Below the pieces are notes generated by a model. It saw only the letters and a list, made by a program, of their open reading frames with translations. It was not told the origin of the DNA and searched no databases. Below are positions 4 through 13,476 of a stretch of 29,009 bases of DNA, one piece after another; position 1 is the first letter of the stretch; the number at the start of each line of letters is the position of its first letter. Source of the stretch: an uncultured Cellvibrio sp. (GTDB taxonomy: Bacteria > Pseudomonadota > Gammaproteobacteria > Pseudomonadales > Cellvibrionaceae); assembly GCA_946481095.1 (NCBI GenBank), contig CAMLML010000062.1, positions 1 to 29,009 on the forward strand, written 5' to 3'. The translations under genes and the position numbers were made by a program.

Positions 4-161
4 ACCCCTCTCCCCTGCCCCTCTCCCACAAGGGGAGAGGGGAATTGGTTCTGTTCAAAGTTTTACCTGAACTCATTTCTTTCAAGCTTATCCATTTTTT
101 CCTTCAGAACTCAAAGCTGCTCCCTCTCCCTTGATGGGAGAGGGCTGGGGAGAGGGTGTTT
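4..161. repeat. Palindromic inverted-repeat element, copy 1
   Basis: First of three near-identical colinear elements in this window; it aligns base for base, without gaps, with 1954-2111. The left end has a perfect hairpin: CCCCTCTCCC at 18-27 pairs with GGGAGAGGGG at 33-42. The right end has another: CCCTCTCCC at 122-130 pairs with GGGAGAGGG at 136-144. The reverse complement of the right end (about 119-160) resembles the left end, so the whole unit is an imperfect inverted repeat with a variable ~75 bp middle. It may be cut by the window edge on the left. The right part overlaps the 3' end of the DUF559 gene. No target-site duplication is evident. Confidence 0.9.
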
Positions 162-507
162 TGCTTTGCAAAGCATTCCAAATTTCATCCAAGACATTTT
201 TTGTTTGCTTTGTTAACTGATGATTCCAAAATCGTAAAACGTTAAACCCTTGTTCCTTCAACCAGTAATCTCTATTTTCATCGTGACTTTTGTTCTCAAG
301 ATGCTGGGACCCATCCAACTCAATAATCAACTTTGCCTCATAACAAACAAAATCCACTATATATCTGGCAATAGGTTCCTGACGCTTGAATTTAAATCCT
401 GAGAATCGTTTTCCGCGTAAATAACGCCACAATTTTTCCTCGTATGGCGTTTGTGTTTTGCGAAGTTCTCTAGCTCTTTGTGCTGTCCAGGTTTTCAAAT
501 CATCCAT
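88..507 (-). CDS. DUF559 / Vsr-fold endonuclease-like protein
   Basis: A 139-residue protein of the DUF559 family, which shares the Vsr/restriction-endonuclease fold. Visible family features are TPYEEKLW (E24), RYIVDF (D52), a strongly conserved IIELDGSQH (E63, D65, H69), and the ending GFNVLRFWN near residues 87-95. E24, D52 and E63/D65 are the expected acidic metal-binding positions, so the nuclease core looks intact. Cellular function is not established for the family. The core ends near residue 114. Residues 117-139 (starting TPSPQPSPIKGEG) are translated from the right half of repeat copy 1, so the original stop was probably lost or replaced. It starts 11 bp after the thrC stop and probably shares the hom-thrC transcript. 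The assignment to the family is firm; any role in repeat movement is inference. Confidence 0.85.
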   Translation of the reverse strand: MDDLKTWTAQRARELRKTQTPYEEKLWRYLRGKRFSGFKFKRQEPIARYIVDFVCYEAKLIIELDGSQHLENKSHDENRDYWLKEQGFNVLRFWNHQLTKQTKNVLDEIWNALQSKTPSPQPSPIKGEGAALSSEGKNG

Positions 508-518
508 GATTTTCCGAT

Positions 519-1916
519 CTATTTCCTCACATTAGCCTTAATAAATTCCTGAACCTTTTTCAATTCCTGTGGCAGCACTGTGAAACGTTCTTCACGTTCA
601 AATAAATCTTTCATGTGATGCGGCAATGCCGGATCTTGATCTTGTCCTGCTTTGCGAACAGCTTCGGGGAATTTTGCCGGATGTGCAGTTGCCAAACACA
701 CCATGGGAATATCCTGACGACGACGGGTTTTGCGAGCAGCTTCAACACCAATTGCCGTGTGAGGATCAAGCAAGTAACCCGTGTTTTCAAATACATTCCG
801 AATCACATCAATAGTGACTTGATCGCTCACACCATAACTGGTGAACAATTCGCGTGCGCGTGAGAGTGCGGATTCTTTGAGAGTCATGCTGCCCGATTTG
901 AAATCGTCCATTAGCTGACGAATGGCATTGCCGTCGCGATCATATAAATCAAACAACATACGTTCGAAATTGCTCGACACCATAATATCCATACTGGGTG
1001 ACAAAGTATGTTGCAATTGATGTTTGCTGTGATCGTTGCTGCTGATGCAGCGATGCAAAATATCGTTGCTGTTGGTGGCAATCACTAATTGATCAATTGG
1101 CAAGCCCATTTTTTTCGCGAGATAACCTGCAAAAATATCACCGAAATTTCCAGTCGGAACAGAAAAAGCCACAGGCCGATGTGGAGAACCTAATGCGAGA
1201 CCTGCATAAAAATAATAAACAATTTGCGCCATGATGCGCGCCCAGTTGATTGAATTAACTGCAACCAACTGACGACCTTCTGGCAAAAAAGATTGATCAG
1301 CAAAACTGGCTTTCACCATATTTTGGCAATCGTCAAAATTACCTTTGAGTGCGATGTTAAACACATTTGGCGCTAACACACTGGTCATTTGACGACGTTG
1401 TACATCAGACACACGATTGTGCGGATGCATGATAAAAATATCGATGTTATCGCAACGGCGGCAACCTTCGATGGCAGCTGAACCTGTATCACCGGAGGTC
1501 GCACCCATCACCACTACTTTTTGATTGCGTTTTTTCAATAAATGATCAAGCAAGTGACCTAAAAATTGCAATGCAAAATCTTTAAACGCCAGTGTTGGAC
1601 CTTGAAACAATTCCAAAATCCATTCGTTGTGTGCAGTTTGCACCATGGGTGCAATCGCATCGTGACGAAAAGTTTCGTAAGCTTTGGCGATAATTGCTTT
1701 GAAATCAGCATCGCTAATCGCACCCGCGACAAACGGCTTCATTACATTAAAGGCTAAGTCTTGATAAGAAAGCCCTGCCCAGGATGCAATTTCTTCTTTG
1801 GAAAATTGCGGCAAGGTTTCGGGAACATAAAGCCCACCATCGGGTGCCAAACCTGTTAACACCACATCTTCAAAACTGAGTGCGGGCGCTTGGCCGCGAG
1901 TGCTGATGTATTTCAC
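519..1916 (-). CDS. thrC: Threonine synthase
   Basis: PLP-dependent enzyme converting O-phosphohomoserine to threonine, the last step of threonine synthesis, in the cytoplasm. The 465 residues match the usual length of bacterial class I threonine synthases. The N terminus (MKYISTRGQAPALSFEDVVL) is typical, PTLAFKDFALQ carries the PLP lysine K112, and GATSGDTGSAA is the phosphate-binding loop. The start codon is GTG, with AGG about 11 nt upstream. It follows hom in the same direction, separated by repeat copy 2; hom-thrC is a conserved pair in pseudomonads. The 3' neighbour is the DUF559 gene. Confidence 0.97.
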   Translation of the reverse strand: MKYISTRGQAPALSFEDVVLTGLAPDGGLYVPETLPQFSKEEIASWAGLSYQDLAFNVMKPFVAGAISDADFKAIIAKAYETFRHDAIAPMVQTAHNEWILELFQGPTLAFKDFALQFLGHLLDHLLKKRNQKVVVMGATSGDTGSAAIEGCRRCDNIDIFIMHPHNRVSDVQRRQMTSVLAPNVFNIALKGNFDDCQNMVKASFADQSFLPEGRQLVAVNSINWARIMAQIVYYFYAGLALGSPHRPVAFSVPTGNFGDIFAGYLAKKMGLPIDQLVIATNSNDILHRCISSNDHSKHQLQHTLSPSMDIMVSSNFERMLFDLYDRDGNAIRQLMDDFKSGSMTLKESALSRARELFTSYGVSDQVTIDVIRNVFENTGYLLDPHTAIGVEAARKTRRRQDIPMVCLATAHPAKFPEAVRKAGQDQDPALPHHMKDLFEREERFTVLPQELKKVQEFIKANVRK

Positions 1917-1953: not shown

Positions 1954-2111
1954 CCCCCTCTCCCCTGCCCCTCTCCCACAAGGGGAGAGGGGAATTGGTT
2001 CTGTTCGAATGATTACTTGAACTCGTATTTCTCAAGCTTATCTTCCATTTCTTTAAGAACTCAAATCTGCTCCCTCTCCCTTGATGGGAGAGGGCTGGGG
2101 AGAGGGTGTTT
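1954..2111. repeat. Palindromic inverted-repeat element, copy 2
   Basis: Same length and layout as copy 1, with both hairpin ends essentially identical and most differences in the middle (about 2007-2066). It fills nearly all of the hom-thrC spacer: its right end abuts the hom stop codon (2114-2116) within about 3 bp, and its left end is about 37 bp before the thrC start. Transcribed with hom-thrC, it would place a stable two-hairpin or one-long-stem RNA structure between the two cistrons. Confidence 0.9.
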
Positions 2112-5226: not shown

Positions 5227-5377
5227 CCCCCTCTCCCCTGCCCCTCTCCCACAAGGGGAGAGGGGAATTGGTTTTGTTCAAAATCTTATTTGAACTCGCA
5301 TTTATCAAAACTTCTTATTTCGGAGGCACTATCTGCTCCCTCTCCCTTGATGGGAGAGGGTTGGGGAGAGGGTGTTT
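5227..5377. repeat. Palindromic inverted-repeat element, copy 3
   Basis: Same ends as copies 1 and 2: left hairpin with the ACAAG loop and right hairpin with the TTGAT loop. The middle is more diverged and about 7 bp shorter. Its right end lies about 5 bp after the trpA stop (5382-5384) and its left end about 5 bp before the preferred xerD GTG, so it makes up essentially the whole trpA-xerD spacer. Confidence 0.9.
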
Positions 5378-6194: not shown

Positions 6195-7421
6195 TTAAAC
6201 AGTAATGCCGTCGAGCGCGGCCACTGTCAGAATATCTTTGTCACCACGACCAGAAAGGTTGGCGATTATTATTTCGTCTTTGCCCATTTGCGGCGCGAGT
6301 TTTTCAACGTAAGCCATAGCGTGCGCTGATTCAAGCGCGGGCATAATGCCTTCAGTCAAGGTCAATTTGCGGAACGCAGCCAAAGCTTCATCGTCATTGA
6401 TCGCAACATAATTAACGCGACCAATATCTTTTAACCATGAATGTTCAGGGCCAACGCCAGGATAATCCAAACCGGCAGACACAGAATGGGTTTCGATAAT
6501 CTGGCCGTTTTCATCTTCCATAAGATAAGTGCGCGTGCCGTGCAATACACCTGGAATACCGCGATTGAGTGGCGCTGCGTGTTTACCAGATTCAAGCCCC
6601 AAACCGCCCGCTTCAACACCGTACATTTTCACGGATTTATCAGTCAGGAATGGATGGAATAAACCAATTGCATTTGAACCGCCACCAACACAAGCAACCA
6701 AGGCATCTGGCAATTTACCGGTTTGATCCAAACATTGTTGACGCGCTTCACGGCCAATTACGCATTGGAAATCGCGCACTAATTCGGGATAGGGATGTGG
6801 ACCTGCTGCGGTACCGATAATGTAAAAAGTATCATCGACATTGGTCGCCCAATCGCGCATGGCTTCGTTCATTGCATCTTTCAAGGTGCGCGAACCGGAG
6901 GTGACTGGAAATACTTCTGCGCCCAACAATTTCATGCGATACACATTCAATGCCTGACGCTTTACATCTTCAGCGCCCATGTAAACACGACATTGCAAAC
7001 CCAAACGCGCAGCAACTGTAGCTGTCGCCACGCCGTGCTGACCTGCACCGGTTTCGGCGATTACACGTTTTTTGCCGGTGAATTTTGCCAGCAGTGCTTG
7101 GCCAATAGTGTTGTTTACTTTGTGCGCACCAGTGTGATTGAGATCTTCACGCTTCAGAAAAATTTTGGCTCCGCCCAATTCGCGGGTCCAACGTTCTGCA
7201 AAATAGAGAGGTGAAGGACGGCCAACGTAATGAGCCAAATCCTTATCAAATTCGGCTTGAAAGCTTGGATCATCTTTCAAGCGGTAATAAATATCTTCCA
7301 GTTCATCAAGCGCGTGAATCAAGGTTTCGGATACAAATCGTCCACCAAAAATGCCAAAACGCCCTTCTTCATCAGGAAAATGTTTGTAATCAATCGCATC
7401 CAGATTTTGTTTGGTATTCAC
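6195..7421 (-). CDS. trpB: Tryptophan synthase beta subunit
   Basis: PLP enzyme condensing indole with serine to tryptophan; partner of TrpA. From GTG 7421 it is 408 residues, close to the family norm. The N-terminal [17 protein letters not shown] is typical, HTGAHKVNN carries the PLP lysine (K101), AETGAGQHG the catalytic glutamate (E123), and [10 protein letters not shown] the phosphate loop. The frame is open to an ATG at 7475, but that start would overlap trpF by 38 bp, lacks family similarity and has no clear ribosome site. The GTG has AGGTGA 7 nt upstream and follows the trpF stop by 16 bp. Confidence 0.96.
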
Positions 7422-13358: not shown

Positions 13359-13394
13359 TTCATTTCTCTCTATCATTCACATTCAAAATTTTTT

Positions 13395-13466
13395 GTAGGT
13401 TGGAAGAGCGAAGCGACTTCCGACAAATTACCAGCTGTCGGAAGTCGCTGCGCTCTTCCAAACTAC
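13395..13466. repeat. GTAG-type REP pair (inverted, REPIN-like)
   Basis: Two 31-bp arms, 13395-13425 and 13436-13466, are reverse complements at 29 of 31 positions with a 10-bp spacer. Each arm begins (or ends on the other strand) with GTAG and contains its own small hairpin (GGAAG...CTTCC). This is the architecture of REP sequences known to be mobilised by RAYT transposases. It lies 10 bp after the leuB stop and may end or attenuate leuB-asd transcription. No RAYT gene is in the window. Confidence 0.85.
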
Positions 13467-13476
13467 GATCAATTAT

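Follow-up and report, generated by a model that had tools for sequence, protein, structure and literature searches.

DUF559 nuclease genes and boxC/PIT-type hairpin repeats: a candidate family of mobile elements

Near one end of the contig of an uncultured Cellvibrio sp. analysed here (29,009 nucleotides, hereafter the window), a small gene for a DUF559 nuclease runs into a hairpin-ended repeat that encodes its last codons, and further copies of the repeat lie close by. This arrangement raises the question whether nuclease and repeat merely meet at one locus or belong to a single element, and, in the latter case, whether the nuclease is what spreads the repeat.

The nuclease gene and the repeats of the window

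5..161, minus strand: copy 1 of the repeat doublet (tract-hairpin-spacer-hairpin-tract), located at the DUF559 gene's 3' end, with hairpins at 18-42 and 122-144; the window begins at its far end
88..507, minus strand: gene for a DUF559 (EDxHD/Vsr-like) nuclease of 139 aa; codons 507-166 form the core, and the tail below 166 is encoded by the repeat
519..1916, minus strand: threonine synthase gene (thrC), the neighbouring host gene, which lies 11 bp upstream of the start codon of DUF559
1955..2111, minus strand: copy 2 of the repeat doublet, in the thrC-hom interval, 2 bases past the stop codon of hom, with hairpins at 1968-1992 and 2072-2094
5228..5377, minus strand: copy 3 of the repeat doublet, 4 bases past the stop codon of trpA, with hairpins at 5241-5265 and 5338-5360

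An earlier note on this DNA had described an intact DUF559 core with a tail read from the repeat, and this description holds: PF04480 (DUF559) covers residues 9-114 of the protein (149.5 bits, E 3.6e-44, compared with a gathering score of 20.6; profile positions 4-109 of 109 matched), and the tail SKTPSPQPSPIKGEGAALSSEGKNG is translated through the element end, with the last ~23 codons inside an element of ~157 bp. The only Pfam matches of the protein are DUF559 and the related MTES_1575, and the HUH Y1 transposase domain was absent in the same search. The two further copies that the note placed near the gene are likewise borne out, 1955-2111 and 5228-5377 aligning with 5-161; the element thus measures 150-157 bp and is present in three alignable copies within the first 5.4 kb. 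No repeat lies on the 5' side of the gene, that is, between thrC and its start, and the window holds a DUF559 gene with a 3' doublet only, accompanied by two solo doublets within 5 kb.

Each copy contains two hairpins, CCCTCTCCC-TTGAT-GGGAGAGGG and CCCCTCTCCC-ACAAG-GGGAGAGGGG, in halves that are mutually inverted (stems CCCTCTCCC and CCCCTCTCCC), and every hairpin has, at its outer end, an extra tract that in all six cases is 8/8 pyrimidines or purines and 1-2 nt off. These six are the only hairpins detected in the 29 kb by a scanner for the pyrimidine/purine type. Folded as single-stranded DNA, copy 2 reaches -39.9 kcal/mol, compared with -20.2 +/- 3.1 for shuffled sequences, of which 0/200 were as low. 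The copies show traits of MITEs, namely, three 150-157-bp repeats with complementary ends and no encoded transposase. By eye, the three aligned copies lack GTAG at the bases of their hairpins, and no target-site duplication is evident at the window copies or at the metH site described below. An Rfam scan of the window yielded nothing exceeding the gathering score. Elsewhere in the window, at 13387-13474, there is a long inverted repeat (39-nt arms, 87% complementary, 10-nt gap) that is unlike the DUF559-linked hairpins.

Given the hairpin with a third tract, the CCCTCTCCC-type stems and the inverted pairs, the window element is, by its sequence features, a repeat of the boxC/PIT/TM "intrastrand triplex" type, with triplex formation putative here and known from the literature for the E. 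coli motif (PMC4666352). The boxC/PIT/TM(ECO) motif has been described in more than 260 genomes, with 23 copies and five inverted pairs in E. coli K-12 (PMC4666352, Holder et al. 2015); according to the same source, loci with the motif are rearranged more often and a link to transposons, phages or plasmids is absent, and its main text has 0 matches for endonuclease, DUF, ycjD, sapF and fabI. For Enterobacter sp. 638, 100 copies of CCCTCTCCC-loop-GGGAGAGGG are reported, often at gene 3' ends (PMC2869309). Among the open-licence literature matches listed, we found neither a named mobiliser of boxC/PIT repeats nor a link of DUF559 or YcjD with boxC, PIT or triplex repeats.

Compared with solved structures, the DUF559 family profile matches 3hrl, a DUF559 protein (E 2e-40), and 3r3p, a mobile-intron nuclease that we take to be I-Bth0305I (E 3e-4); Vsr (1cw0) reaches only E 0.28, and hits in the structure library with E values of 0.06 or higher (enterotoxin B chains, PvuRts1I, Vsr) were judged to be due to chance or too weak. 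Residues E23, R42, D52, E63, D65, H69, D76 and R79 are invariant across 51 aligned sequences including the window protein, and fold kinship suggests that these charged residues have a catalytic role. The EDxHD homing nucleases have I-Bth0305I as their type (PMC3943268), and cyanobacterial inteins contain a DUF559 gene that is likewise termed EDxHD (PMC9403480). E. coli YcjD, annotated as a DUF559 protein, has been described as a putative PD-(D/E)XK nuclease related to Vsr (PMC1189080).

Repeats beside DUF559 genes

A search with the core alone yielded 176 homologues at E 1e-10; among the 120 listed, a simple pattern found a repeat-like tail at the C terminus of at least 49 and at the N terminus of at least 4, such that the recurrence of these tails on DUF559 proteins, mentioned in the earlier note, is real. 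The repeats themselves were sought with two hairpin scanners, both designed after the motif had been seen. The first, which requires a perfect stem and a loop of 3-12, found no repeat in 14 of the 75 loci having both flanks; most of these 14 contain imperfect or long-loop repeats by eye (the reading was not blind), and for this reason a second scanner was added that allows one mismatch and loops up to 50 and requires the third tract, the union of the two being used.

The window core was aligned to 28 relatives having little or no tail, and this alignment served to search a species-level genome collection; the best 80 of the 588 confirmed matches were taken as a locus set that, being the best, leans to close relatives. 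In this set, a repeat lies within 200 bp of the DUF559 gene in 74/80 loci (upstream in 68, downstream in 64, on both sides in 58), compared with 36/594 control ORFs lying more than 2 kb away, and the repeat density is 2.70/kb within 300 bp of DUF559 versus 0.074/kb elsewhere. Repeats on both sides characterize 40/75 DUF559 genes versus 3/811 other ORFs of the same loci, and pyrimidine-first hairpins outnumber purine-first ones by 232 to 5. The arrangement is also polar: among these best 80 of 588, the third tract is on the gene side in 54/63 nearest upstream and 47/58 nearest downstream repeats (p 3e-14). The DUF559 genes of three Legionella/Fluoribacter loci (L004, L021, L028) have long-loop versions of the repeat, with loop sequence partly common to L004 and L021.

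Enrichment of the repeats near DUF559 genes, the check that the earlier note had proposed, was further assessed in three samples chosen independently of the repeats, that is, Pfam hits in genomes drawn evenly from one group, with control ORFs taken from the same loci at more than 2 kb from DUF559. A repeat was found within 200 bp of DUF559 in 14/17 cases in the order of genome G002 (all stand-alone hits; controls 10/150), in 40/43 in Pseudomonadota, the phylum of G003 (one hit per genome; controls 25/312), and in 24/31 in the phylum of G007 (a single strong hit from each genome; controls 11/200). Further paralogues gave 11/13 (controls 9/104). Pooled without these paralogues, the counts are 78/91 DUF559 genes versus 46/662 control ORFs (odds ratio 80), a strongly positive outcome in several groups. 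The Pseudomonadota sample comprises 43 of the 47 genomes with a match of at least 50 bits, omitting G003, G015, G087 and G211, in the last of which the gene is broken into two pieces; the sample from the phylum of G007 omits weaker matches, G320 (contig edge) and most second copies, and both this sample and that from the order of G002 include the centre genome, itself reached via its DUF559 locus.

Among the 13/91 sampled genes that were repeat-negative by the scanners, two are truncated by a contig end or by Ns (L188, L190), one belongs to an intein (L192) and one is a broken gene (L098), and some of the remaining ones have imperfect repeats by eye. In a contrast set of weak DUF559 matches in very long Pseudomonadota frames, a repeat was detected at 0/4; DUF559 domains in long frames from the phylum of G007 had one at 4/6. 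At another locus (L082), the DUF559 gene is bracketed by a direct repeat of ~80 bp and not by the usual inverted hairpins.

The association extends to whole genomes. In the order of G002 (119 genomes), a stand-alone DUF559 gene is present in 8/12 genomes with the exact repeat versus 6/107 without it (p 1.6e-6, kinship ignored), and in four of these six the scanner detected a variant repeat beside the gene (L083, L090, L093, L096), finding none in the other two (L082, L085). Across 200 Pseudomonadota genomes, DUF559 (at least 50 bits) was identified in 25/34 genomes with at least three exact copies versus 22/166 others (p 5e-12, again with kinship ignored); a reversed control pattern of the repeat occurs in 2/200 of these genomes, and Y1_Tnp is not linked to the repeats in them (20/34 versus 99/166, p 1). 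Counting any match, DUF559 is present in 23/119 genomes of the order and in 68/200 Pseudomonadota, with 10 matches in G146.

The earlier note had named genomes with many copies and no DUF559 gene as evidence that would go against a link, and such genomes exist, the enrichment near DUF559 genes nonetheless being found. Among the 34 Pseudomonadota genomes with at least three copies, nine have no stand-alone DUF559 gene (G140, G148, G170, G175, G209, G255, G266, G276, G119), and these nine count against strict dependence of the repeats on the nuclease. A looser profile, applied to eight of them (not G148) and to G074, a genome from another sample in which a 4.55-Mb contig carries 12 copies and no stand-alone DUF559 was found, detected fragments in frames of 1863-2404 aa (three genomes), a chance-level match (one) or nothing (five). 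In G255, G276, G119 and G074, there are 12 to 107 exact copies with no stand-alone DUF559 found, for which loss of the nuclease, incomplete assembly and another mobiliser are alternative explanations; nuclease loss could account for the repeat-bearing genomes without DUF559 more generally.

Repeat and protein also co-vary. In three genomes with multiple DUF559 genes (G146, G066, G284), the upstream repeat best matches its own downstream partner in 10/12 scored genes. The exceptions are L089, where the match is poor, and L147; the upstream repeat of L147 has a score of 0.87 against the downstream repeat of L145 versus 0.80 against its own, L145 and L147 being the closest proteins among the six scored G146 genes; the own match of L146 is poor (0.35) though the best in its row. 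Paralogues within one genome thus appear to carry, as a tendency, their own repeat variants. Across 117 loci, own repeat pairs average 0.61 and cross pairs 0.32, the own pair being best in only 49/117, and the Mantel correlation between repeat and protein similarity is 0.28 (0/999 permutations as high, kinship ignored). Relatives that share gene and repeat by descent may contribute to the genome counts and to this correlation.

Units inside host genes and the ycjD locus

The four repeat-bearing domains among the six in long frames from the phylum of G007 (L193, L194, L195, L198) proved to be units inserted in frame. In L193, L194 and L198, a repeat-DUF559-repeat unit lies in frame within metH; in L198, methionine synthase domains were identified by Pfam on both sides of DUF559, which occupies residues 743-850, with B12-binding_2 matched only from position 29. 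In L195, a DUF559 unit with repeats is in frame in a DUF1156 gene. A further unit, found in the Pseudomonadota sample (L112), lies in hsdM: the solved chain 3khk aligns as far as its residue 496 and again from 505, whereas in the query the first aligned part ends at 476 and the second starts at 636, the DUF559 matches lying between them. The boundary rests on this chain, since a motif search found the corresponding loop in 0/14 HsdM relatives. Since the repeats can be translated in frame with no stop codon, their insertion at the end of a gene or in a loop would be tolerated.

The metH site was surveyed in the family of G337, where 50/61 genomes matched and 30 loci were read, sorted by eye. 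The metH loop harbors a DUF559 unit in 8 of the 30 (L221 by its tail only), a solo doublet in frame in one (L204), one hairpin or a remnant in two (L201, L210), and short or unrelated linkers in 17, and two loci begin inside repeats near contig ends; nucleotide boundaries were read for 15 of the 30 loci. Altogether, DUF559 occupies this one site in at least nine genomes, and the series could reflect one old insertion with later decay. For seven of the inserted domains (six surveyed loci and L194, two others having been missed by the script), pN/pS is 0.13-0.44 over 21 pairs, values that are rough because pS is near saturation (mean 0.76) and that point to purifying selection on the domain.

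Three loci (L192, L196, L197) contain DUF559 within intein-like sequence, with Hint-like motifs on both sides by eye and no repeat within 200 bp, L196 and L197 being the two repeat-free members of the long-frame set from the phylum of G007; there, DUF559 is apparently the homing nuclease of the intein, a role predicted from sequence.

In E. coli K-12, the DUF559 gene ycjD ends in a degraded boxC (by eye), and a full-length boxC, whose stem has one mismatch (by eye), lies 166 bp past the gene end; between the two, the 3' end of ycjD is partly duplicated (L081, 6240-6420, by eye). At the 5' end of ycjD, at about 6765-6810 of the same locus, there is a different inverted repeat (CACCTCATTCTGACAA / TTGTCAGAATGAGGTG). 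The ycjD region is matched at a coverage of at least 80% in 3365/5426 E. coli genomes. The locus without ycjD was considered as a clean empty site and rejected as such: in all three strains read (L249, L250, L251), efflux genes, named eef (PMC12817139), occupy the same sapF-side place, which identifies a replacement.

A candidate mobile element and its known relatives

That DUF559 and the repeats reside together as a unit is well supported by these comparisons. Our preferred interpretation, which we consider probable, is that the DUF559 gene and the boxC/PIT-type hairpin repeats form one family of mobile elements spread by its nuclease, the loose repeats being non-autonomous or left behind. 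The repeats usually bracket the gene, and gene and repeats sit inside other genes in the manner of a mobile element, which makes the nuclease a strong candidate for the spreader. The full unit would be repeat-DUF559-repeat with the extra tract of each repeat toward the gene, and the scattered doublets of about 75-160 bp would be forms of it that are non-autonomous or were left behind, in the relation that REPINs have to RAYTs, or MITEs to a transposon. The EDxHD/Vsr-like nuclease would recognize its own folded repeat and nick or cut at or beside it, after which host replication or repair would copy or lose the unit or a lone doublet. The support from sequence includes the association itself, the polarity, the paralogue-specific tendency of the repeats, the in-frame units in unrelated genes, the metH series from empty site through hairpin and doublet to full unit, the enrichment of DUF559 in repeat-bearing genomes, the boxC copies at ycjD in E. 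coli and the pN/pS of the domains inserted in metH. Against it stand the repeat-bearing genomes with no stand-alone DUF559 gene, the one-sided repeat of the window gene and the lack of an evident target-site duplication. In experimentally evolved Legionella pneumophila, recombination hotspots were observed at repeated segments that carry both a transposase and a DUF559 gene (PMC12308824), which fits DUF559-driven mobility without assigning the cause to DUF559.

Several other explanations have to be weighed. The repeats could be fragile, recombination-prone sites at which DUF559 is one of many small genes that have settled as passive cargo; the more frequent rearrangement reported for triplex-motif loci (PMC4666352) is in line with this, as is the larger rearrangement that accompanies presence or absence of ycjD in E. 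coli. Other ORFs, however, have repeats on both sides far less often than DUF559 does (3/811 versus 40/75), and the paralogue-specific tendency of the variants, the polarity of the tract toward the gene and the units built alike that lie in frame in unrelated genes all make mere settlement quite unlikely. It is likewise unlikely that the pair serves the host, with DUF559 trimming its own repeats as a structure-specific, Vsr-like nuclease for repair or guarding, and the repeats as regulatory or terminator hairpins rather than transposon ends: the presence of DUF559 is patchy (23/119 and 68/200 genomes), some genomes have many paralogues (10 matches in G146), the domain resides within metH and hsdM, and doublets are scattered away from any DUF559 gene. 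Such service would nevertheless agree with the purifying selection on the domain within metH, with the Vsr-fold kinship (PMC1189080; weak in our structure match) and with the location of repeats at gene 3' ends in the window and in Enterobacter sp. 638 (PMC2869309).

DUF559 might also be an ordinary free-standing homing endonuclease that cuts specific empty alleles (metH, hsdM and others) and is copied by recombination, the hairpins being incidental. Simple homing predicts neither the same kind of repeat with DUF559 at unrelated sites in several phyla nor doublets scattered through genomes, and the scanner detected no repeat within 200 bp of the edges of any of the three intein forms; we regard this explanation as improbable, notwithstanding the match of the family profile to the mobile-intron protein 3r3p (E 3e-4), the DUF559 domains in intein-like sequence (L192, L196, L197) and the recurrence of one metH site in at least nine genomes. 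Least plausible, to the point of being very improbable, is the spread of the repeats by RAYT/IS200-type Y1 transposases or another enzyme with only an indirect link to DUF559, which the palindromic, REPIN-like form of the doublets and the 9/34 repeat-bearing Pseudomonadota genomes without DUF559 could suggest; no link to Y1_Tnp was found in the 200 genomes (20/34 versus 99/166), GTAG is lacking at the hairpin bases of the window copies, and RAYT mobilisation was rejected on these two counts.

We give roughly even chances to a broader proposal, namely, a widespread unnamed class of mobile elements in which a ~110-aa nuclease of the EDxHD/Vsr fold recognizes a folded, possibly triplex, doublet and spreads itself and the doublet via host replication or repair, without transposase chemistry; this would account for boxC/PIT in E. 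coli (with YcjD) and several phyla, and the elements would be able to live in frame in important host genes. The parts of this picture are known; the DUF559-repeat link, the unit and the in-frame residence appear to be new. Naming DUF559/YcjD makes the old boxC question directly testable in a laboratory strain and gives DUF559 a substrate hypothesis, the odd PSPxPSPxxGEG tails on many predicted DUF559 proteins are accounted for as translated element ends, and a possible route emerges for a hydrolytic homing-type nuclease to disperse short palindromes.

Among known systems, REPIN/REP-RAYT (TnpA-REP, "REPtrons") provides the parallel drawn in the earlier note: there, too, a gene is flanked by short palindromes dispersed in its genome, and repeat and protein co-evolve (PMC3733652, PMC8266576). 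The REPtron trait of a mobiliser flanked by its dispersed repeat is seen for DUF559 at large and on one side only for the window gene. RAYT, as described (PMC3733652), is an HUH tyrosine transposase acting with REPs that carry GTAG, in contrast to an EDxHD/Vsr-like DUF559 and repeats with a third tract and no GTAG; the comparison is apt as a functional analogy and fails as homology, since the nuclease is unrelated and the repeats lack GTAG. With I-Bth0305I, DUF559 shares a homologous nuclease core (3r3p, E 3e-4), but the former has added DNA-binding regions and a long target (PMC3943268), whereas DUF559 is a bare ~110-aa domain between hairpin repeats. The description of YcjD, Vsr and PD-(D/E)XK nucleases in PMC1189080 does not mention an association with repeats, and Vsr is a repair nickase. 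Compared by description only, Rickettsia palindromic elements (RPE) and in-frame MITEs are similar in being palindromic elements of ~150 bp inserted in frame, and differ in that no nuclease partner is described for them (PMC10969869), whereas the insert here can carry a nuclease domain. The closest kin of the repeat itself is boxC/PIT/TM, with which it shares the hairpin with a third homopurine/homopyrimidine tract, the short loops and the occasional inverted pairs; as described in PMC4666352, boxC is intergenic in K-12 and present in many genomes, whereas the repeats analysed here are tied to DUF559 genes and form the ends of an inserted unit.
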